Positions 7,474 through 49,087 of a stretch of DNA of 64,000 nucleotides are shown here, piece by piece. The translations under genes were made by a program, and so were the position numbers. Below the pieces are notes generated by a model. It did no database searches. It worked only from the letters and a program-made list of their open reading frames with translations, and was not told the DNA's origin. Source of the DNA: Meloidogyne chitwoodi. Taxonomy: Eukaryota; Nematoda; Chromadorea; Rhabditida; Meloidogynidae. The DNA is taken from positions 1,612,001 to 1,676,000 of the forward strand of contig JACZZP010000007.1 in the NCBI GenBank assembly GCA_015183035.1. The letters run 5' to 3'. How positions within the stretch are numbered: the first letter of the stretch is position 1; the number at the start of each line of letters is the position of its first letter.

Positions 7474-10400
7474 CTATTTCTTGAAGGAACGTAAATTCAT
7501 AGGTTTTTCATGTGCTTTTCTTGGCTTTATTTCCTCATGGCCTACAAGTATAATATGCTTTTGACCATCTTTAGTACATCTTTGACCCCAGAACGATTCG
7601 ATACGGCGATCCGCAATTTTTAAAAAGGCATTATTTTTATCATTATCAGAGAATTGCATAGCATAAATACTTATTTCCTGTAAATTAAAAAAAAAATAAA
7701 GATAAATGGAAAAGGAGTATGAAGTCAACCGAGACCCTTAAAAATGCCACAAACAATTTTTTCAATATTTTAAAAAAGCTCTAAATGATTATACGATTCC
7801 TTCTTCTAAAAAATCAGATACATAATATGGTTATGCTTTTGAATTGATAAAACAAGAAACCTCGTTTGGCCCAATTTGAATAATATAAACACGTCCTTTA
7901 TTTGTTGTTCCAAGTAAAAGATAACTAATATTTTGTTCACTATTTTCAATAGTAGAGGAATGGCAACTTAAATGCGAAATCCATTCAGAATCTTGACATC
8001 CAAAATCTGCGGCTGATTTGATTATTTGATGGCCATTTGTTAAATTGTATAAAGAGAAATGTTGTTCCAAATCTGAAGCTAATAATACGACTCTTGAATC
8101 ATCAATAAATAAACAGTCAAAAATTGAATTAACTTTTGAAGTTGTGGGAAAAATATTGAGTTGCTTTGAAGTAAAAAGAGACGATGGTTGTTTTTTAATA
8201 ATTTTATCTTGAATAATCGATGTATCATTTTCGTCTTCGTTTATGTTCGTCATAGTTTCATTAGAATTATCTATAAAACAACAAGGTAAATTAATCAAGG
8301 AATGTCAAAAGGCAATTTTCCTAAATTACTGACCCAAATGAAGCAAATAATTAGTTATATTTTAACAATTGATTACATAAATAAAAATTAAATAATAACA
8401 TGCCTGTCATAGAAATATCTGCTTGCTCTTCAATATTGAGATTGATAAACAAAGAGCTTCCTTCAGTTGTTAATGCAAATAAGCCAGTTTCTGAAGGGTT
8501 AACACATATTTTAGTTATATGTCCAAAATCAGCTAAAAATTATTTTTTAAGCAAAAATTTAACAATAAAATTAAATCGTACATTTTTGTGCAATTGTAGT
8601 TAAGGATTTTGAATCTAATTCAAGCCTCATTAGTTGATATTCACCAGTTGCATAATACAAATAATTATTAGTACATTGCATTGCAAAAACTGTTTTACCT
8701 CCTTTAAATTCTGAAACTTCTTTAGAAATTAATTGATTGTTCCAATATTGTTTAATTAATGTATTTAAATCTAAAGATTCGTTATTTTCATCAGTAGCTT
8801 TATCCTTTCTGTTTTCCAAATCTCTTTTCATTAATTCTTCAATGACATTTTCATGTAGTTCAACTACTGAAATAGCGCCTTTTATTGTACAAGCATAACA
8901 AATATATTTTCCATTAGGAGAAATGCATGACTTAAAATTTTTTTTAGCATAATAATGTATAGAAACAAAAACCTGTTTAACAAAACCCATATCACCACTT
9001 TGAATTCGAATTAATCTTTTCGGAGGTAATACACATTTTATGTATCTCAAATTAAAAAATTTCAAATAATAATATTTAACAAAAAACCTGCTCTGTCTAA
9101 TATTTGAAAAACTCATAACTGAAAATTGATCTGGTTTGTACCAAACATCAATACTACTTAGCTGTCTTGTCAATATAAGACCTCGATCAGGTGAAAATGC
9201 ACACTCTGGCTGAAAAAATAAAAATTAATTAATTAAAAAAATGAATAATACCCTTATTTGAGGTTTACAATATAAATGAGCACTGGAGATAAATAAACCT
9301 TCAAATCCTCCAGAGACGAGCCATTTTCTGTCTAATGCACATAATGACCGAACATCTAATTAAAAAAATTTTAAATTAAAAAAAGCAAAAGTCAATTTAT
9401 AGCAAATAAAAACCATTTGTGTGATGTTGTCGTTGGCCAACTATAAGCCAGCTCATAGCTTCCTAAAAAAAAGTTGAAAATTAGCAAATTTGTTTAAATG
9501 TAAAATAAATTTATTTTTAAAGTTTTGCAAAAACAATTCTAGATAAAAGATTCTTACAATAATACCTTTAAATTTATGTTAGTCCTAGTTCTTACCATCA
9601 AAAATCATAGTAGGTATAAAAAGAAAAATGATTTAACTTAAGTTATTGTTAACTATGAGAAGTTAAAATTATTTATAAACTTTACTTTTCTTTTTCCTGT
9701 TAATGAGAATATTTGTATCCGAAAATCGGCACCAGAAGCGTATACTCGAGAATAATCAGTGGCCAAAGTTAAAACATGGGTTTGATGAGATTTAAAAATC
9801 TTGAGGAAAAAAATAAATTTGTAAAAAGTTAATAAAAAAACCTTATAAACAACACCATTTGCTGGATTGTAAATTGTTACTTGACCAATAGAATCGCCAA
9901 CAAACAAATAGTCATGACTAGAAAATAATCAAATATTAAAAAAATATTAAAATAAAATTACTAAAAAAGAAGTGACCAAACAATAATAGAATTTTTATTA
10001 TGAGGTAACTGAATATCTCGACGTGAAGCAATTTTCATATCATCCACATTTTGTTCATTACTCAATGTAATAATAGTTAACCAGTTGACCATTCCAATAG
10101 CAATCATTTTAGGCTTGTGGCTTTGTTTTTGTGAGCTATTATATCTAAATATTGAAAATACATTAAAATTTAATATATAGTCATACATTTATTTTAAATC
10201 AATAAAACCCTACTTATTGGCAAAAAAATATATTTTTTTACACAAGTCAGTTATACATTATTTCTTCAAAATAGGTATTGAGAATTTCAGTTAAAATAGA
10301 GGTCATAATATTTAAATAATACAAAATTTTAACAAATAAATTAAGAAAAACATAAATACATAATATCCAAAAAAAAGAATATATATTTTTAACATATGCA

Positions 10401-35449: not shown

Positions 35450-38400
35450 TTAACAATATATATCCAAAAGACCACGTGATTTAAGCAATAATCCATCCCA
35501 ATCAGTTTGGTGGCCATAGACTTCCTGCTCTAACCATTGTTCATAATTTTGAAGAAAACGATCATTAAATACTGGTTCCCATGCCAATGCACTTTGAATT
35601 GACTAAAAAAATGTTTAAATTAAAAATATAACAGAAACGACAAATCACTCACATTATCCATTGGCTCCCAAACTTTTGGATCCCATTCACCGGCAAGCTC
35701 ATCCAAATGATTCGCTAAAAGATCACTACCATGTTGATTGTTTTGATGTAGGTAATCAGTAGAAGAAATATTATATAGATGTTCTAAAATCAGAAGATTA
35801 AAAATAACAAAATAATAATGTTTTTCTTCCTCACCAGCTGACTGTGAAGTATCAGCGACTGTTATTCCATTACGCAATTGATGATAAGGATATCGTCTTG
35901 TGTTGAATCGTCTTATTGCTATGCTTAATTCATTTTCATCTCGATGATAATCAAAAGATTTAGTTCTAGTTGTTTCATTTGCATATGCCCAATCATCATT
36001 AAGACGATGCCTACAACGCATATAAATAGCAGAAATAATATCCATATTTGTTTTACGCCATTGACGACCCAAATAACGGGCTTGCAGCTTAAGAAGTTTG
36101 AGTATATAAAGTTGAAATATTCCCTTAAATAAATTTTTATTATTTTCTTAAACAGAAATTACCAATTTGGCTTTCATACAACGTTTTAAAACCGGTGCTG
36201 ATTTGTAAACAACTAACATCATTGTACGTGCCTGTTTTCCTTTTACTAATTTATTTATAACACGCAAAAGGTTAATTGCCTTAAAAAAAAAGGATTTAAT
36301 TTATTCTTCTGTTCAATTAAAAATTCACCGAAAAAACATTTCTCCAGCGGAAATATCCAGGCAACTCAGTATTATTTCCGTCATCAACATTATCAACCGT
36401 TAGTGGTGGACGTTCATCTAAAATAAGGAAGTTTTATAATTTGTAAAATTAGAATAATTATCTTACTTCCGTTCCTTACAATATAAAGAGCACATTGAGG
36501 ATAATTGTAAGGTGCCAAATCATGTTTTGATTGGAAATAACGACAAATATTCTGATCAAGGAATTTCAACACTAAAGGCATACAATTTGCTAATATCTAT
36601 TAAAATGTACAAAAATAAAGAAATAATTCAAAAAATTTACCAAATATTGTGCAAAATTTTCAAATTGATAAATGTGATTAAGGCGGAAATGCTTAAGCAA
36701 TAGAATGATAATGGAAGACGCACCTTTGATGATCAGCTAAAATTATTTAATAATTTTTAGACAAAAAACCAAAAAAATTCTTAAAATAAAAATACCTCTT
36801 TATGACGGTTTATATCAATAGCAACACGTATATTGTCTTCTAATACATTTCCACTACCCAAGTGTGCAAGGTCAAGACTAATTGAATTGGACAATACTCT
36901 AAAGAAAAAGGAGAGATTAACTAATAGCAAAATATTATAATAAAATAAAAACAAACTCATTTGTATCTGTTTCTGGCGTAAGTACATCTGATAGAATTGT
37001 CACTGCATCGTTCTTTGCCTGAAAAGTTATTGAAAAAGTTTTATTTTCGTTAAAAACAACAAATAACCTTTGAAGAAGGTAATGATGCAAGAATTACTTT
37101 AAGGATCGCAACTACATATTCTGCCATTTCAGGCAACATATGCGAATATAGTCGTTCTGTAGGTGTTTCCTCAATGAATTCACGCTGTGAGAATGGATAT
37201 TTATTATATCGCTCCTCAGCCTTTAACTGAAATATTAAAAAAATATGTTAGAGTTAAGGGTATTTAAATTATTAATACAAATTCTAAACCTGAATTTCTC
37301 CCAAAGAAGTATACAAATTTCGACGAAGAGAATCAATGCTTGTTTGAACAGGCAATGGAAGTCCAAATAAAGTAGATGAGTCATTAGGTAATTGGTAGTA
37401 GAAAAATTTTTGACTAAAATTGAAAAATAAACATAAAACATTTTTATTTAAAAACAAAACCGAGCATGTTGAAGAAAATTATTAATATTATCTTCACGAA
37501 CTTTTGAACGCCAAGGAAGGCCTTGAATAAAAAATAAAATTTGGAAAATTTTAAATTATTAAACTCTATATAAAACTTAATCGAATCATAATTCAAGTTA
37601 AAAACAATAATAAAATTCATTCAGCTTAATAAAAATTTTAAATAATATAATAACCAGGTGGTGGAGGTGGTGGCCAAGGACTGGAAAGTTTTATCGGTGA
37701 TTGGCAGGCTTTCGGTGTTTGATCTCCTCCACCATTAGCAGAATCGTTGTTGCCATCATTTGTACGTTGAATAAGTGATTCATTAAACTGGACAGCAATA
37801 ATTGGATGACGCTGATACTGTTGTTCCTAAAAATATTTTAAAATTAATTAATAAAAGCGAAACCAATAAAAACAAAACCTCAATAAAATTCTCTTTCCCA
37901 GCGGTACTTTTGGAGAACATTGAAAAATTTTCGCGTTTAATATCGTACTCGCTCTTCTTTTTTTCAAGTTTAACATCTTCATCACTTGACAATTCCTTTA
38001 AAATTTCATCGAGTAAATCGGCAGCCACCGGCTTTTTTAACACATCTGAAACATCCTTCAAAAATCAAGTTAAAAAGGATAATAATGAATATAAAACAAC
38101 TAAATTCACGTCTTGTCCCTCTTTAGTTTCTTGTTTCTCAAATTCATCTTCAACAATTTCTTCCTCATTATCACCACACGGCATTGAATCGTTTACATCA
38201 TCAAACACATCGACACTTTTAACATCGTCAGAACAATCGGAATTTACTTCTTTTAATTCTAATTTTGCTTTACCATCGCTAGAGTTAATAGTTGCTTCGA
38301 CTGAGTTGTAGTTAACATTATCAATACCTAGAAAAAAAGAATGAAAATCAAGAAATAAATAATAAAATGTATAGAAACAAAATTTCCAAAAATTACACAT

Positions 38401-40588
38401 AAATGCGCGAAAAATTACCATTCTCGTTGTTCGAAGAGGATGAAGAACAAGCGACTTGACGCTTGAATAGTCTATCTTTGGCGGCTAAGCGCATTTTACA
38501 ACCCAATACCCCTAAATCAATTAAAAATCGTTTGCAAGAATAAAAAACTCCGTAAAGCACTTTCTCCTCCATTTCCTCCGGCACCTCCACCAAGAGCAGG
38601 TCCAATGGATTGTGTCACAGGCTTCATAAGAATGGCAGCTTGAAGTGTGTCCTCAATAGGTTCGAGTAATACATCACGACGTTTTCGAGCTTTATCTTCA
38701 CGAAGAAAATTAATTCCTCCTAGCGTCGTCAATAGAACTTTCCAACAAAGCAAAATAACCTAAAAATTTAATGCTAAATAATTAAATTAAACGTTCTAAC
38801 ATAATCTATTGTGTTTTAGCATTTAAACTAACCTTTTTTATAGGATAATGAGGATTTTTAGCTCGAACAAAAGTAGGCATCATATCAAGCAAAATAATGA
38901 CCAATGGCATTTTGTTGTGTTCCAACGGTTCTTCTAGATAATTATATGATTTTAAGTAATTTAAGCGAAATTTATTAAAAACAAAAACCTAATTCAGCTA
39001 AAAATTGTTTGCGTAAAGTGTTTAAAGAAGCATGAACACTCCTTTCCGTTGAGGATGTCTTAGAAATAGAAAAAGTATGTTCCGGTGACTGATATTTCAG
39101 TTTTCGTTGTTCAAAGATGGAACAAACTTCATCAGAAATTAACTCCTCACGGCGCAAAGACTCAACCTTTAAATTCAAAATTTACAAAAATTCATGTTTA
39201 AACAAACTATGTGATATATACAATTCAAAACTACACGAATTCGTTCATTGTCGGCTAAAGTAGCAGATCGCCTAGAACGTCTTCGTTCAAAAGTGCCACT
39301 GGCAGAGCCTCCACCTCCATCCGGCGCTATTCCTGTTGATAAATCCATGTGAGAGGTTGAACGAGAATTAGAAACACTAGACTGGCGAGAATGATCAGCA
39401 TATCGTTCAAAAGGTAAGGAAACTTCCAAACGTAGAAGTGAACAGAGTGGCTTAAATGAAGTAAATTTGAGTTATATTCAAATAGAATTACAATTCTAAA
39501 TATATCAATTCAATAATAATTAAAAAACCTGAAATAATCCTTGTTCATAAAGAAGATAAGCATTTGCAGTTGAATTTAGCAAGCAATCAGATTCATAATC
39601 ACCTGTTCCATGGTCAGGTCCAAACCATTTTGGTAATCCCAATTCACTTGTTGTTTCATCTTCTTCCTCGCCACTTCCTGTATCACTACTGTTTTTACTA
39701 CCATCAACTTTATAGGATTTATTTTCAATAATTTCTTCGCCTAAATTATGAGAAGATGAAGGACGACGTCGTCTATTTCGACTACTACGACGAGAACAGT
39801 CGGCTAATATTGGCGCCTTTTGCTTTTTACCTTCCAATTCGGCAAAATCGCCATAGGCACCCTATAAAATAAAAATTTCAAGAATAATAAAAAAGAATAC
39901 CTGAAGAATATAAAGAATGATCCTAGTAGCTTGAAGACGCTGTTCCGATTCATTACTGTCAAAATTTGAAGACAACTCTTGTATAATTGAACACTTGTCT
40001 TTTCGTGGAAGTTGATTCCAAATTGGTTCTTTCTGTATAAAGAATACGTTTAATTTTAAAATTAAAAATACCTTTTGTTCTCGCATATATTTGACGAAAC
40101 ATTCAAAATTTAATGCAAATTCATCCATCTCGGAATATGTATAGAACTCAGCTAATTCGGCCTTATAAGAATCTGTATCAGCATAATTGAACTCTAATTC
40201 GCCCATCAAATTTGCTCGAGCACTCTGAAAAATTAAAAATATTATATCATCTTATAGAAATAAACCGTCAAAGGAAACTCTGTCGAAGAAATATTTAACT
40301 CATTAGATACACCGGCACACAACTCTCGTAACTTAGGCAAATTTGCTGAACGACGCTGTGCAAGTGCAGAAACACACAGATCGCTACCTGCAACAGATTC
40401 TCTACAAGTTGCAGAAGGTTCGCTGCTTGATAGTCTAGGCTCTGATGAAGATGAACGACGGTTAGGAGCACCATAGACTGAAATAAAATTGATAAGAAAT
40501 TAAGATTTAAAAAACCATCTTCAGCAAAAGAAGGCCTAACGGCTCCAGAACGTAAGCGATTTTTAGTGTCCGCATCCGTATTTGACAT
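35450..40588 (-). CDS. farl-11: STRIP1/2-like (FAM40, Far11) STRIPAK subunit
   Basis: Large helical scaffold of the STRIPAK phosphatase-kinase complex. The N-terminus (MSNTDADTKNRLRSG) is Ser/Arg-rich. The N1221 domain follows: SYKAELAEFYTYSEMDEFAL, RLQATRIILYILQGAYGDFA, then KKVILLCWKVLLTTLGGINF. An acidic, Ser-rich linker (DGSKNSSDTGSGEEEDETT) is inserted. The DUF3402 region gives DLAPYNYPQCALYIVRNG, YFRWRNVFSAINLLRVINKL, GKQARTMMLVVYKSAPVLKR and RYLGRQWRKTNMDIISAIYM, all collinear with human STRIP1, and the end matches the family (NYEQWLEQEVYGHQTDW). The start is at 40588; the stop is at 35450-35452. It is divergent from the topoisomerase-like gene with 304 bp between, and heads a same-strand series with APEX1 and DCAF7. 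Confidence 0.95.
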
Positions 40589-40892
40589 TACTTAAAATTA
40601 TATAAATGATGCTTAAATTAAGAACAGATTTTAAAGAAACCGGGAGTCGGCCGGCGCCTAGTTAGCCTAAGGGTATAGATTTTGGACTAAATGCAATTAT
40701 TTATTTTAGGACAAAATGCTATCGTCCAGAATTGACATCATTTGACGCATTATGTTTTAGGTGATTGGTTATTCAATTTTTTTAATTATTTTAACTTAAG
40801 TACATATGTAAATTTTGTTTAGAGTGATATTTAAAAATAAATTTTATTTTAGGGTAATAAAGTATTGTATCGTTATTAATTATTATCTAATT
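40589..40892. promoter_or_regulatory. Divergent promoter region (STRIP / topoisomerase-like)
   Basis: 304 bp between two divergent start codons. It includes a short GC-rich stretch (GGGAGTCGGCCGGCGCC, near 40645), unusual in this AT-rich window. The core promoters of both genes probably lie here. Confidence 0.5.
40841..40852 (+). promoter_or_regulatory. Probable spliced-leader trans-splice acceptor
   Basis: ATTTTATTTTAG ends 40 bp before the ATG at 40893. There is no candidate upstream donor exon, so this acceptor would suit SL trans-splicing. It also argues for the downstream ATG over the in-frame Met at 40815. Confidence 0.45.
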
Positions 40893-43800
40893 ATGGTTTC
40901 TACTAGTGGACAAGATTCGTCTGAAAAGCCAATAGGACCTCAGACTCCTCCAAATTCGCAGTTAAACAGAGAGATTGATAATTTTGAAATTAGTGATGAA
41001 GCATTCGAGGAAGGACATACGCAAATAATTTCAACAGCTGCAAATCAACAAAATGAAACTAATTCTGAGTTAAGTACTGGAGCTTCAAACACAGATCAAG
41101 TATTAAACTTTTATTTTTGAAAATTTTTCATTTTTTGATTTTTATAAAAATAATCTCAGAATTCCGTTGATATCAGCAAATTAATTCGTGCTCCTCCTCC
41201 TCCAGTTTCTCGTTCGGTAATTGTTCAAGCATTATATTTACTTATCGAAAATCACAATAATAAAGAAAAGCAAACAACTTTGGACGAATATACGGTTTTT
41301 CATAATGTTTTTGTTTATTTTTTCCAATTAAAGATAACTTGCCGTTTACGGAGTAGAACATCAACAAGTAATGGAAAAGAGGGTGTTGTTGCTCGTCATT
41401 TGAACGGCCCATTTAACCAAACAAACCATATTTTTAGTGCATCACGCCTCCGGGATCTTGAAGTTTTTAAATATAAATCTTTTTTTAGATTTGTAATTAT
41501 TAATTTTAGAAACGTGGCCGGGCTAAGCTTGTTTCTTCAAATGCTAGATATGAGGAAATTCAACAGCCAGTGCCCATGAATTTATTTACACTTATTCGAA
41601 TTGCAAGGTTTAATTTTTATCAAAAAATGATTAAAATCCTCTCATAGTGATCGATTGAATTTTTCTCCAAATTATACAATTGAATTGGCAGATCGTTTAC
41701 ATAAAAGCAAACTTATAACAAATCCAAGGACATTTGCTAAAGCTTATCCACTTGGATTTCCAAATGAAGGTTTATTATGTTTTTTATTTAAATATTTTAC
41801 TTTTAAGATTTTATCAAATCCATTATTAAACAAGCCGATGAAATTTGTAAGCTGCGTGTCGATACTAGAGTATTATTATTTATAATTTTCATAATTTTTT
41901 TCTTTTAAAATTTGCAGATAATTCTCGCTAATTTTAATCGTCCAAAATGCAGAGATCTTAGAAGCTTTGTTAGCAATAGCACTAAATTCATTAATTCAAG
42001 AAATTCACCTCCCATTCATCCTTGTATTTTGGCATCAAATGAAAATGCTGAAATAATGTTAGATCAGTGTTTAGAAGGTGAGAAATTTATTTTTATATTT
42101 TATTGTATATTATTTTATTAGAAATTATTTGAAAAAATTATTAATTTTTAGGTGACGAGATGGAATTATTGAAATTAATTTGCCAATATTTTTTTGCCAC
42201 TTGCCATCAGCCTTTTACTTATTCAGTTCATACTTTTGAGTTTGTTATTGATCTTTAAAATTTAAAAAATTAATTTAAAGATTTGAAACTGGTCCTGAGC
42301 GTTTTATGTGTGAATGCCAAGTGCTTGCAACACCAGGTTTTACAATTCATTTGCCTTGGATGCGTCCAAAGAATGTTAGTGATCATTTGCCTGAAGAATT
42401 TAGAAAGAAAAATCCAAGTCGTGAATATTATGTCAAGTAAGTTTTATTGTTTTAATTTATCTAGAAAACGTACAATAATTTTCTATTTATCTAGAAATGG
42501 TTTAATTGTTAATTAAATATTTTAAAAAATTCAGTGATGTCAAAAAAGTTGATTTGCCCAGAGATGAAACAAATGAATGCATTCTAGAATCTGATTTTAT
42601 TGAATTACTTGAAAAACGTGCTGTTGGAAATTCTCTAATTTTGGACACATTAAATGCTCTGGTTGAATTGAAACTTATTAATGTATTTATTTTAAATAAT
42701 TTTAATTACAAATTTCTTTTTTAAAGATTATCGGTCCAGGGAGACGTATTATGCCGAGTGCTAATGGTCTTGAATTAATGGAACAAGAATATCGAAAAAA
42801 GATAGACCAGATAGGTGATGAGAGTAATAATTTCACTGAAAATGTTTCTCAAGGTTTTTAATAATAAAAATTATAAGTTATAGAATATTAAATTACAAAA
42901 TTTAAGTCGAGCCAAACATTGGAGATGCTCAAGCTAATTCTACTTCTCATTCATCTTTAGCTTCTACAAATACAGTTTCTTCAGTTTCCAACAATATTGA
43001 AAATTTTACTTCAATTAATAATAAAAAAATATCATCAATTGCCATACCTTTTCAACGTAATTTTGGTTTTAGACAAAGAAATTTAGAATCAGCACATTCA
43101 GAATTTTCTGATTCAAGTACTAGAATTTCCATATCTGATATCCAAAATCAACAACAATATTTTCCATGTCAACAACAACAATTTCAACAATCAAAATTGA
43201 CATTAGAACAACAAAATGAACAGCAATCAACACCACAATTATTACAAAAATTACATATTGGAAGGAAAGAAGTTTCGGAACAAAATTTTAATAAAGTTTT
43301 TTTTAATATATTTTATTTATAAATTAATTTTATTTTTTAAAAAGGAAAGAGACAGTCACCACAAAATTTCTTTTGCTGCGCCATCATCACATCGTGACTC
43401 TCTTTCTCGCAATCGAACAAGATTAGAACGTGAAAATATTCGAAACAATATTTTAGATTTTGAAGAAGGAAATTTTAAGAAAGAATTCTCTGGTTCAGAA
43501 AATCCTTCTCCAACAAAATCAGAAATATTAAATCCTCGTAGATTAAGTTGGATGGCTATAATTACTTCAATACAACAAACATGTATAATTTTTATTTTTT
43601 ACTATTTTTCAATTTTATATTTAGCTTTGAAAAAAAATATTACTGCTACTCCACGTCGAAATAATGAGCGGAATTGTTCTTCATCTTTTAAATGTTCTAA
43701 TTCCAATTTTAATTTTTCTGCTACAGATGACGATTTTGGACGATATTCAAATAAACGTGTTCGTTTTGAATCACCAAGGCCAAGACGTTCAGTATCAATG

Positions 43801-44769
43801 GCACCAATAGAACGAAAAAACGACAATAATAATAATAATGATTTGTTTAATTTTAATAATAGAATTAAACAAATTTCTTCTGGCAGTTCTAATAATAATT
43901 CTTCCAAAGAATTTCAACAAAGAACACGTAAAATATCTAAAATAATATTTAAGAAGAGTTTTAAAGGACTAATTTTACATTATTTAAATTAAAATAATTT
44001 TTATAGGGACGTCACGTTGTCGTTCACCATCACCTGAACGTCGTCGTCGTCCTTCCTCTTTTCGCGATTGGTGCAATAAAGATAAGAAAAAAGATTATTC
44101 TCGTCATCGGGATAGAGATAGACATCAAAATAATAATAATAATAATAATAGAAATGATTCAAAACCTTCTTCTTCATCTTTATTGGGATCAAAAAGATCA
44201 TCTTTAGATGACATAAATTCACCAATAAAATCATTTAAACAACAATTATTAATTCAACAAAAAGAAAAAAGTGAAAAAAAAATAAATGATAGTAGTAAAG
44301 ACTATTATTCACAAAAACACCGTCAAAGTCGTTATGATAATCATTTTAGTAGAGGACATCGTGATAGAGATTGGAGAGATAGTAAAACTCAATCACACCA
44401 ATCACAGCGTTCTTCACATTCACGAGTAAATAAATAAATATTATTATTTAAAAATATAAAACAAAATTTTAATTATTATTTTTTTAAAAGTTTTGTCATA
44501 AAGATTCATTGTCACAATCTTTTTCTTATGGAAATTCAAGTAATAATAATAATTCTCGAAGACATCATTATCATCATCAACAACAACAAGAATCAAATAA
44601 AAATAATAAAAGAGGGCATTGTTATCAAAATGAACAACAACAACAACAATTTATAAGTAGTCAAGAACAAATAATTCCTCCAAAAATACATCCATTAATT
44701 GGTGCTACAGAAGATATTTCTACAATTCCTCCAAAAAGAGGTAAATGGATATGGGTAGATGATAAATAA
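40893..44769 (+). CDS. Topoisomerase III-beta-like protein lacking TOPRIM and the catalytic Tyr, with RS/Q/N-rich tail
   Basis: Starts MVSTSGQDSSEKPIG with about 100 disordered residues. The middle is collinear with the type IA topoisomerase core of TOP3B: VPMNLFTLIRIASDRLNFSP, TIELADRLHKSKLITNPRTF (family LYTQGLISYPRTE), NSPPIHPCIL (family DHPPITP), FETGPERFMCECQVLATPGF (family IGPELFTC...ISPGF), ILESDFIELLEKRAVGNSLI (family LTEAELITLMEKHGIGTDAS) and GRRIMPSANGLELM. The active-site tyrosine of SYPRTE is Asn (TNPRTF), the following Glu is Phe, and GIGTDA is AVGNSL. No TOPRIM domain precedes the core. After it come Q-rich, then RS/RD-rich basic stretches (RSPSPERRRRPSS, YSRHRDRDRHQ, FSRGHRDRDWRDSK), ending KRGKWIWVDDK. 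The enzyme reaction is therefore unlikely; an RNA- or DNA-binding scaffold is my inference. Exon joins in the tail are partly uncertain. Confidence 0.82.
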
Positions 44770-45440
44770 ATAAATAAATAATTAATTAATTAATTAAAAT
44801 TATAGAGACATTTTAAGTTATTTTTATTAATTAAATATATTCTTTAAAATTAAGAGATTTTCCATTTTTTTATTTTTTATTTTATTCCAATGGTCTATAC
44901 GAATCTTTTTTTTTTACCAAAATTATTTTAAAATATTTTTCTTTGTTTTTAATAAAAATTAATTTTAAAAATTATTAAAAAAAAAGATTCGTTTAAAGAA
45001 AAATTTATATTCTGACCATCGTTTTTTTAAATTATTTATATCTTTTTTAATTTTGTACAATTATTTAATAATTTATAATTGTGCATTTAATTTATTTATT
45101 TTATAGAAAATTGTTTTTATATATTTATTTCTTTGTTGAGCATTTAATTTATTATATATTTATTTATATTTTTTAATTTGTTAGTTGGAATGATATTTTT
45201 TAAAAATAAAATAAAATTGTTAATTTTAAATTTAAAAAATAATTTTTTATTAAAAAGAGAAGATTTTTTAATAAATTTATTTAATTTAAAAAATTATAAG
45301 AAAATATATTTATTTAAAAATTAATTTTAGAAATTAAATATATTCACTCTTTAGGTATTTTAGTAAATTTAAAATATTATTTAAGTATTAATTAATTATT
45401 TTATTTGGTATTATTAAGGCAATTAATTTGTTTTTCTTTT
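44770..45440. other. Convergent AT-rich intergenic region with a hairpin
   Basis: About 670 bp between two gene 3' ends. TACGAATCTTTTTTTTT at about 44898 and AAAAAAAAAGATTCGT at about 44980 are reverse complements and could fold. No coding sequence is seen. Confidence 0.5.
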
Positions 45441-47320
45441 TTAACGATTTATTGTGCTGCTGTAAGAGACCAATTGGCCGGTGACACCCACGGAGGAAGG
45501 GTTTGATGTGTATTCCTTTTTAAAAAATAATATATTTATAAAAATATTATTAAATTATTGGGCAATAATTATAATAAAAAGAAGAAACAAACTCTTCTGG
45601 GAAAACCTTATATCCACGATCATCACGAGGGTAATTAGCACCACTAATTTCAATTTGTTCATCTAAACCATGTATTCTTAAATTAATAAATTAAATAATT
45701 AAATTATTTAATTAAATTATTACCCAATAAATAAATTATAAGAAAATGCTCCTATTAATGCACCAATAAAAGGTATGGCAAGAGGAATCCAAAAATAAAA
45801 ATTATCATGACTATAAAAAGAATTGAAAAATATATTTTTAATTTAAAAATTAATAAATTACCTGAACATCCCCCATCCCATTCCTATACTTCTATAAATA
45901 ATTTTATTTATTTTTAAATTTATATTTAAATATATTACAACATAAAAAGTCTTGGACCAAGATCACGTGCTGGATTAATTGCAAATCCTCCATTAAGTCC
46001 AAATGTTAATGAAATCTATTTATTTATTTAAAAATAATATTTTTTAAAATATTTCTTTAATAATGAAATATCTTTTAAACAATTCTTTGAAAATTAAAAA
46101 AAAATATTTTATATTCAGAGATGTATCGAAATTTCATAAGAGTGATATTTCCTAGTTTAATTTACTAATTTAAATATTAAATAAAAAATTAAATATAAAT
46201 TTAAATAATAACCATAGTAAGTATTAAACCAGCTAATAAAGGAATAAGACCACTAGGCACTCTATTTCTTTTATCAGTAATTGCCCAAAGGCCAGCAGCT
46301 AATAAAGCAGTACCAAATAATTGATCTAATATACTTCCATAAATACTTAATCCCTTTAAATTAATTTTTATTTAATTTAATTATTATTTTTACATCTCTT
46401 GGATATGTAGCGAATTGACTGGCTTATTATGAATAATTTAATTTAATTAAATTTATTTTTTTTTAAATTTACCCAATTCTTGATCGCCTCTTTGAGAGTG
46501 AATGAGGCTACAATCCTCTATAATATTAATTTATTTATTTAAAAATAAATAAATATTTTTTAATTAAAAAACCAAAATGGCCAAGAAATGCGAGTGCAGC
46601 ACCCAGAAAAGCACCAATTAATTGTGCAGGTAAATATAATAAAAATCTTAAAGGAGAAATACCACCTCTTAGTAATTGGGCAAATGAAATAGCTGGATTA
46701 AGATGAGCACCTTTTAAAAAGAATATTTAATTATTTAAAATATATTTAATAAATAATTTAAAAATAAATAATTAAATATTTAATTAAATAAATAAATTTA
46801 CCAGATATTTGTAAAGACAAATAAACACCTAAAGATAAACCAAAACCCCAACCCAATTGATTGCCTAAATGTGAAGATGAATGTAATTGTGTTATTGTTG
46901 TTTGTGTAGAATTATTTAATGTAGCTATAGCTATAATTGTTGTTGTTTGAATATTTGCTGATATTCCAATTAACTTTTTTTTTAATTAAAAATTATTATA
47001 TTTTAATTATTATATTTTAAAATAAAAACCAAAAATAGAAGAGTTCCAACTAACTAAAAATAATTAAATAAATTAAAATATTTATTTTAAAACTCTAATT
47101 TATTCCAATTAATATTAATAAACATTCCCATTTATTCCAATAACTTTTAGTTATCTCATATGTATAAGTGAGAGTTAAGAATAATTATATTAAATTAATT
47201 ATTTAAAAAATAGAATATTTAAATAAATAATTTAAATAAACTAACTTCAGCCATTACTTCTCTTATCAATGAACTTTCAATTCTTAATCGGTGAGCAATT
47301 GCTTCACTAACTTTTTCCAT
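45441..47320 (-). CDS. Aquaglyceroporin (MIP family channel)
   Basis: Six-helix channel passing water and small solutes such as glycerol across the plasma membrane. It starts MEKVSEAIAHRLRIES at 47320. Hydrophobic segments include LGWGFGLSLGVYLSLQI, LYLPAQLIGAFLGAALAFL, LFGTALLAAGLWAI, GLIPLLAGLILT and FYFWIPLAIPFIGALIGAFS. Both pore motifs are present: first SGAHLNPAISF, then GGFAINPARDLGPRLF. The Asp right after the second NPAR marks the glycerol-permeable subgroup in established families. An extracellular loop after the second helix is enlarged and Thr/Asn-rich (NNSTQTTITQLHSSS). The C-terminal tail reads ISGANYPRDDRGYKVFPEE, then EYTSNPSSVGVTGQLV to the stop at 45441. Introns cut it into about nine exons. 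Confidence 0.92.
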
Positions 47321-49087
47321 GTTTTTTCTTTTAATTTAAATAAAAATAACAATTATTCTTTTCTTAATTTATAAATGCTAAAAATAAATTAATTGAAGAT
47401 TTTTTTAATAAAAAAAATAATTAAATATTAAAAGATAAGAGAAAAATAAACATTTTTTTAATTTTAATTATCCATTTTATAAATAAAAAATTTTAAAATA
47501 ATTAACAATGGAGGAAATAAATAAATAAAACTTAAATAAAATAAATATTATTATTTAAAATTAATTAATTTTAATTTTTAAATTAAACTAAAAATATTTT
47601 CTATTAATTTCAAAGAGAAAAATATTTTATAATTAAAAATATATTTAGAATTTAAATTTAAAAATTAAATAAAATAAAAAAGAATTAAATAAATATTGAA
47701 TTTATTTATTTTAACGTGGCAAATATTATAAGAGAAATAAAAAAACTTTTTTTAGTTATTTGTATAATATTACATATATTATTAGAATAAATTTAAAAGA
47801 AGAGAGAGGAGAAAAATAATATTATTTTTAATATGCAAATTATTTTCTTTTGTAAATAAACAACAGACTTTTTGATTAAATAAAATAATAATATTTTGAT
47901 TTTTTTGGTATAAATATTAAAATAAAAAATATTTTTTACGTGTAAAATTTTGTTTTTTTTTAAATTATGAGTAATTAATTATTTAAATATTTTTATTAAA
48001 TTTAATAAAAAATATTTAAAATTTTGAAAGAATTTTAGGCAGAAATATTAAAAAATCACTTAATTTATTAATTTTTAAATATTTTTAAAATAATAATTTT
48101 TAAATCTGAGTAATAAATAAATAAACAAGTATTTTAAAATATTTTTTTTAATAAAATTTATTTCAATAAAATAATTCAAGTATTCCTTCTTTTTTAAATT
48201 ATTTTTAAAGAATTTTAAAATTTAAAAAAAAATTGAATTAATATATAAATAAATAAATTTAATATTTTTTTATTTAAATAAATATTAAAAATAATTTTGA
48301 AAAAAATTAAAAAGTAGAAAATAATTTTTTTAAAAAGTCTGAAAACCCTTTTTTATTTAAATCATTTAAAAAATTTTTAAAATATTTTTGATTTGCTGAT
48401 AATAAAACGAGGACTTTTAGAAGAAGAAAATAATTAAAAAAATATTAAAAATGATAAAAGTATTTTTATTTTTAAAATTTAAATAAAATAATTTTTCTCA
48501 TTTTTTTTCCGGAAAATATCAATTTTCAATGAAAATGCGTCATTAAATTTTGTTTAAATTGTTAAAATAAATTAAAAATAAAATAACACAATTTTAAATT
48601 AAAATAATATATTTAGTAGTAAAAGAGACAAAATAAATAAATAAATTATTTTTTTTCAGCTGATATTTTTTATTTAAATAAATTTTTATTTAACACAAAT
48701 TACTGATAAGGCAACAAATAAAAAGACAAAATAATTAAATAAATATTTAATAATATTAAAAAGAAAAGATTATTATTATTACTTAAATATTAATTTTGAT
48801 TTAAATAAAAAAAGAAGAAAATAATTTTATTTTATTTCAAAATAATAATAATTAAAACTAACCAATTTATAGGTATAAAGAGAGGAAATTTAAAAAAAAA
48901 TATCCCGATGTTCATAAATAATTTAATATTTCTTTTTATTTAGTAAAATATTTTAAAAAGAAAATGAGATCATTAGTATTTTTTAATAATTAATATATTT
49001 ACTTTTATCCAGCTATAATGAGAATAAACTTTAATTTTAATTAAATAATTAAAAATTAAATTATTAAAACATTTAATTTATTTATTT
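47321..49087. other. Long AT-rich intergenic region
   Basis: 1.77 kb of very AT-rich sequence made largely of A/T runs and TAAATAAATA tracts. No gene, RNA or clear repeat boundary is seen. The aquaporin promoter probably lies at its left end. Confidence 0.5.

Follow-up and report, generated by a model that had tools for sequence, protein, structure and literature searches.

Positions 40893 to 44769 of a 64,000-nucleotide stretch of the Meloidogyne chitwoodi genome (assembly GCA_015183035.1, contig JACZZP010000007.1, forward-strand positions 1,612,001 to 1,676,000; the whole stretch is hereafter the window) hold a gene derived from topoisomerase III-beta (TOP3B) that has lost both the TOPRIM domain and the catalytic tyrosine. 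It is the third type IA topoisomerase gene of this genome, beside TOP3A and TOP3B. Since the parts needed for cutting are gone, yet the reading frame has stayed open and the gene is conserved among plant parasites of the same kind, the shape of the enzyme has probably been reused as a scaffold that does not cut. On balance, we lean slightly towards a conserved TOP3B paralog acting as a non-catalytic scaffold, in which the gate would bind a protein partner and the basic tail RNA or other acidic polymers. For the broader proposal of a conserved subfamily of type IA pseudoenzymes in sedentary plant-parasitic nematodes, in which the TOPRIM exons were lost at an intron boundary and a non-catalytic scaffold was made out of the gate and winged helix, we judge the chances to be even.

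The initial annotation of this stretch had proposed that the middle of the protein is collinear with the TOP3B core and that exons and splice sites are intact, and both points held. The gene model has 15 GT..AG introns of 38 to 98 bp and a coding length of 3060 nt with no internal stops. Searched against Pfam, the 1019-amino-acid product gave a single match, to Topoisom_bac (PF01131; E 2.8e-22, 79.7 bits with a cut-off of 35.1), covering residues 91-464 of the protein and positions 45-383 of the 411 in the profile. In a sequence search of the PDB, TOP3B chains came top (2.7e-20, 76.1 bits, the best being human TOP3B), followed by TOP3A (3e-06, 29.8 bits) and E. coli topoisomerase I. The AlphaFold2 model of the Globodera rostochiensis homolog (A0A914I5Y2, here P0005) had a confident core, and its top fold match was again human TOP3B. 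The above-cut-off profile match and the matching fold place the protein in the Topoisom_bac superfamily. According to this model, the window protein would retain the folds of domain II (the gate), of domain III and, within domain IV, of the winged-helix part, with domain names transferred from TOP3B by alignment.

The motifs SYPRTE and GIGTDA of TOP3B had been read as TNPRTF and AVGNSL in this protein, and the alignment put both pairs in the same columns, confirming that the catalytic tyrosine is gone. In the tyrosine column, human TOP3B and the TOP3B of M. chitwoodi itself have Tyr, the window protein, the homolog P0001 and the M. enterolobii homolog P0002 have Asn, and P0005 has Ser. The complete motif is TNPATF in P0001, TNPTTF in P0002 and SSPLTS in P0005, and the counterpart of GIGTDA is AVGN-S in the three Meloidogyne rows and ELGNYG in Globodera. 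The Asp-His pair before PPI and the GTD motif are lost in P0001, P0002, P0003 (M. javanica) and P0005, and likewise in the window protein, which keeps only the Arg of PRT, a position occupied by Ala, Thr or Leu in the homologs. We also looked for a nearby tyrosine fitting the active site better. The nearest one downstream (AKAYP) corresponds to the second tyrosine in TOP3B, and that column is Tyr in all 35 rows of our alignment A6; therefore, it is not a displaced catalytic tyrosine, and this candidate was discarded.

Alignment A6 comprises P0001-P0003, P0005 and 31 active-type prokaryotic type IA rows, the window row being left out; a mixed-alignment scan kept 80 prokaryotic loci, of which 38 were trimmed to the core and 31 used. 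The prokaryotic rows have 67 columns that are at least 95% conserved. Scoring a gap as a loss, 18 of them are kept in all four family rows, 20 in some and 29 in none (18, 18 and 27 without the four columns at P0005 positions 563, 564, 567 and 568, which lie beyond the core and are meaningless). Pro, Gly or Leu account for 13 of the 18 kept columns, and the losses include the Tyr, Arg, Asp/Glu, Asn, Thr, Asp, His, Thr and Lys of the catalytic motifs. Compared with TOP3B alone, 39 of 194 columns (those identical in human and M. chitwoodi TOP3B and ungapped in the family rows) are identical across all four family rows, here with the window protein included. With TOPRIM, the catalytic tyrosine and other active-site residues all missing from its sequence, the window protein is unlikely to be an active type IA topoisomerase.

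Regarding TOPRIM, its proposed absence was corroborated. Pfam detected no Toprim in the window protein (E up to 1) or in five homologs (E up to 0.1), and across the whole genome (47.48 Mb in 30 contigs, the window being C28:1612001-1676000) it matched in two places, TOP3A and TOP3B. A TOPRIM hidden upstream of the gene was ruled out by these scans and by the presence of a STRIP-family gene about 300 bp away. Compared with TOP3B, the protein also lacks the first part of domain IV and has neither zinc fingers nor an RGG tail. By architecture, which for the TOP3B subfamily includes C-terminal zinc fingers and an RGG tail, the protein falls outside that subfamily, PF01131 being its sole Pfam match.

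By descent, the window gene belongs to the TOP3B subfamily, being closer in sequence to TOP3B than to TOP3A and having introns in common with it; the suggested TOP3B origin was thus borne out by sequence, introns and fold. Six of the seven TOP3B introns in the shared stretch have a same-phase counterpart among the nine of the window gene within one alignment column, four of them exactly, and none of 200000 random intron placements matched as well. When TOP3A was included in the alignment, the TOP3B introns shared were three exactly, five within one column and six within four, and no TOP3A intron was shared at any of four tolerances (for one TOP3A intron, the end was set manually in spite of the splice score). 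These shared places and phases point to a DNA-level duplicate of an intron-bearing TOP3B and rule out a retrocopy. An origin from TOP3A was rejected on the PDB scores (76.1 bits for TOP3B, 29.8 for TOP3A) and the lack of TOP3A introns. The first coding intron of the window gene is in phase 0, as is the TOP3B intron that follows residue 203, and each of them lies 20-24 codons ahead of the first shared helix (counted by eye); the TOPRIM exons were probably lost at this intron. In a phylogenetic tree, the window protein, P0001-P0003 and P0005 formed one clade with 100/100 support and long branches, whose attachment point is not fixed by the tree alone.

A second, intact TOP3B, which the initial annotation had advised looking for, was found on contig C6 (about 739450-743515, minus strand). 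Its spliced product is complete, with 890 amino acids, and SYPRTE and GIGTDA are present along with a Cys-rich part and an RG-rich tail (by eye); over its first 612 residues it has matches to both Toprim and Topoisom_bac and reaches 773.6 bits against human TOP3B. For TOP3A, on C30, the check covered the Toprim match and one spliced stretch, in which SYPRTE and GIGTDA are both present, and a hand-joined version gave 452 bits to human TOP3A. Searching the genome with the window core returned ten matches, nine in the window gene itself and a weak one at TOP3B (24.1 bits).

The search for orthologs in related nematodes, also advised, yielded open frames in Meloidogyne and Globodera: P0001, P0002 and P0004 (both M. 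enterolobii), P0003 and P0005, with three Meloidogyne proteins of 838-1009 amino acids. The Meloidogyne orthologs are about 80% identical to the window protein, and the core is more conserved than the tail. Identities to P0001, P0002 and P0003 were 82.6, 82.3 and 81.8% in the core (3, 4 and 3 gap columns), and 53.2, 49.9 and 53.0% in the tail (72, 90 and 169 gap columns, P0003 ending early); P0004, which is without the first half of the core, was excluded from the core counts. Among the matches listed, the family is known from Meloidogyne and Globodera only. Two profile searches for a wider family added one bacterial topoisomerase I (P0006) and nothing else among the best 7988-7993 candidates of each; given that only these were scored, other nematodes may also carry the family. 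A scan of a contig collection with the TOP3B pair found no relative. Among the open-licence papers listed by our searches, none has a title or abstract opening that describes a TOPRIM-less TOP3B family of Meloidogyne or Globodera. In the accessible part of a review on type IA topoisomerases from 2024 (PMC10969213), the words ‘nematode’, ‘inactive’ and ‘paralog’ do not occur, and neither do TDRD3 or TOP3B in that of a C. elegans TOP-3 paper (PMC9178014).

As to what the protein binds, domain II of TOP3B binds the oligonucleotide/oligosaccharide-binding (OB) fold of TDRD3, and the contacts in human TOP3B, as given in the accessible part of that report, are hydrophobic, on alpha-7 and at Pro437, with Phe265, Ile269, Met272 and Met276 among the residues concerned (PMC5296760). 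Because domain II, the partner-binding part of TOP3B, is retained, a protein-partner role is the likeliest reuse, and we infer a scaffold function. The TDRD3 contact helix is, however, altered in the window protein, in which Phe265 and Pro437 are kept and alpha-7 is shifted and largely polar, and the TOP3B of M. chitwoodi itself carries Ala, Ala, Lys and Glu in place of Ile269, Met272, Met276 and Pro437. The TDRD3 link raised at first came out weak. In the genome, PF08585 (up to E 10) found only a tandem pair of near-identical copies (by eye; C6:1287000-1289000), which we read as RMI1-like, and hence no detectable TDRD3-type OB fold. TDRD3 was set aside as a partner on these grounds, although a search run one exon at a time makes this absence weak evidence.

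The protein had been described as having an Arg-Ser (RS) tail, a description that did not stand. We counted 11 RS/SR dipeptides, with a mean of 17.2 in shuffled sequences, and found no enrichment in P0001 (11, mean 11.5) or P0002 (10, mean 14.9). With counts below the shuffled means, an RS domain or SR protein was ruled out. Instead, the tail is a basic region of low complexity, with a net charge of +36 counted from residue 481. The PPKRGKWIWVDDK end is almost invariant in P0001, P0002 and P0004, the only homologs reaching it, and the tail before it is poorly conserved; this end is perhaps a short binding motif. In the Globodera tail, residues 605-631 of P0005 give half an RNA recognition motif (RRM) match; either the domain is genuine or the gene model may have fused two genes.

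In the mechanism that we propose, an intron-bearing TOP3B gene would have been duplicated before the split between Meloidogyne and Globodera. The copy would have lost TOPRIM, the first part of domain IV and the C-terminal zinc fingers and RGG tail, together with the catalytic and many conserved polar residues, and the fold of the gate, domain III and winged helix would have stayed. The retained gate, which in TOP3 enzymes is the surface for OB-fold partners, would bind a protein partner, the likeliest candidate in the genome being an RMI1-type OB protein, and the basic low-complexity tail would bind RNA or other acidic polymers.

One could argue that the topoisomerase fold itself, through its winged helix and groove, holds single-stranded RNA or DNA without cutting it. 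We consider this unlikely, since all four family rows have lost conserved polar residues that line the active site and groove of type IA enzymes, and the core has a net charge of only +3. A dominant-negative paralog, that is, a regulator competing with TOP3B or TOP3A for an OB-fold partner or for substrates, appears more doubtful. It would fit with the retention of the gate domain, through which TOP3 enzymes bind their OB-fold partners (PMC5296760, accessible part), and with a genome in which TOP3B, TOP3A and RMI1-like genes are all present, but PF08585 detects no TDRD3, the core is just 21.6% identical to the TOP3B of the same genome, and the contact helix is altered. We give still less credit to a duplicate that is decaying and has little selected function or none. 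Long branches, lost domains and a gap-rich, low-complexity tail would be expected of one; however, the frame is open over 16 exons here and in the Meloidogyne and Globodera proteins, the core is conserved far more than the tail, and the 1009-amino-acid frame of P0001, on source contigs of at most 3187 bases, suggests a spliced transcript. Finally, that the protein still cuts nucleic acid with a TOPRIM from another protein and a different nucleophile is highly improbable, as nothing speaks for it beyond the retained fold and the PRT arginine of the window protein, which is replaced in the homologs, and against it stand the loss of Tyr, His, Thr and Glu/Asp in all four family rows and the restriction of Toprim matches to TOP3A and TOP3B.

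The coordinates of the gene, its parts and the neighbouring genes are collected in the table. At the exon joins, we compared six residues each with P0001: 12 of 15 (numbers 2-12 and 14) show no gaps and 3-6 identical residues, join 13 has no gap either but 0/6 identical, and joins 1 and 15 are gapped. Hence, the ends of exons 1, 14 and 16 are the least certain. The window has a G+C content of 25.9%, which, like the identity of about 80% to Meloidogyne orthologs, suits a root-knot nematode, and an Rfam scan of its positions 38000-48000 gave no matches.

Features of the TOP3B-derived gene and its neighbours (window positions)
Feature	Positions	Strand	Basis
Whole gene, TOP3B-derived protein without TOPRIM or catalytic Tyr; 16 exons, 1019 amino acids	40893..44769	+	Splice model, reading frame, Pfam
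Exon 1, acidic low-complexity N-terminus (net -11, residues 1-75), at the place of TOPRIM in TOP3B	40893..41099	+	Splice model, charge; no Pfam match here
Exons 2-11, topoisomerase-derived core: gate domain II, domain III, winged-helix part of domain IV	41160..42853	+	Pfam (residues 91-464), alignment, fold of Globodera ortholog
TNPRTF, dead active-site motif, counterpart of TOP3B SYPRTE	41718..41735	+	Alignment; codon 41721-41723 is Asn in the Tyr column
SPPIHP, counterpart of DHPPITP: Asp-His pair gone, Pro-Ile-x-Pro frame retained	42005..42022	+	Alignment
AVGNSL, counterpart of GIGTDA: Gly retained, Thr and Asp gone	42620..42637	+	Alignment
Exons 12-16, basic low-complexity tail, N/Q/S/R-rich, one RSPSPERRRR motif, no RS domain	42907..44769	+	Splice model, composition
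C-terminal PPKRGKWIWVDDK	44728..44766	+	Near-identical ends P[PT]KRGKWVWVDDNEGN in P0001, P0002, P0004
STRIP-family (N1221) gene, head to head with the TOP3B-derived gene	38500..40590	-	
Aquaporin-like (MIP) gene, downstream of the TOP3B-derived gene	45500..47320	-	

A lineage that retained the type IA gate fold but none of the chemistry for cutting would set the binding role of TOP3B apart from strand passage and provide a natural separation-of-function protein. It also carries a warning for annotation, as three of the five homologs are publicly labelled ‘DNA topoisomerase’ despite missing the required parts. Among known systems, the closest is TOP3B, human or from M. chitwoodi, with which the window protein has in common the Topoisom_bac fold over some 375 residues and the places and phases of introns, and which is its best sequence match and the top fold match of the Globodera model. 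It differs from TOP3B in being without TOPRIM, the tyrosine, zinc fingers, RGG tail and catalytic residues, at 22-23% identity. The G. rostochiensis protein shares the dead active site, the lack of TOPRIM and the 100/100 clade, but its core is 35% identical and its tail is different. TOPOVIBL and Spo11 are likewise topoisomerase relatives that have been reused, but they derive from type IIB and not type IA enzymes, and they participate in break formation.
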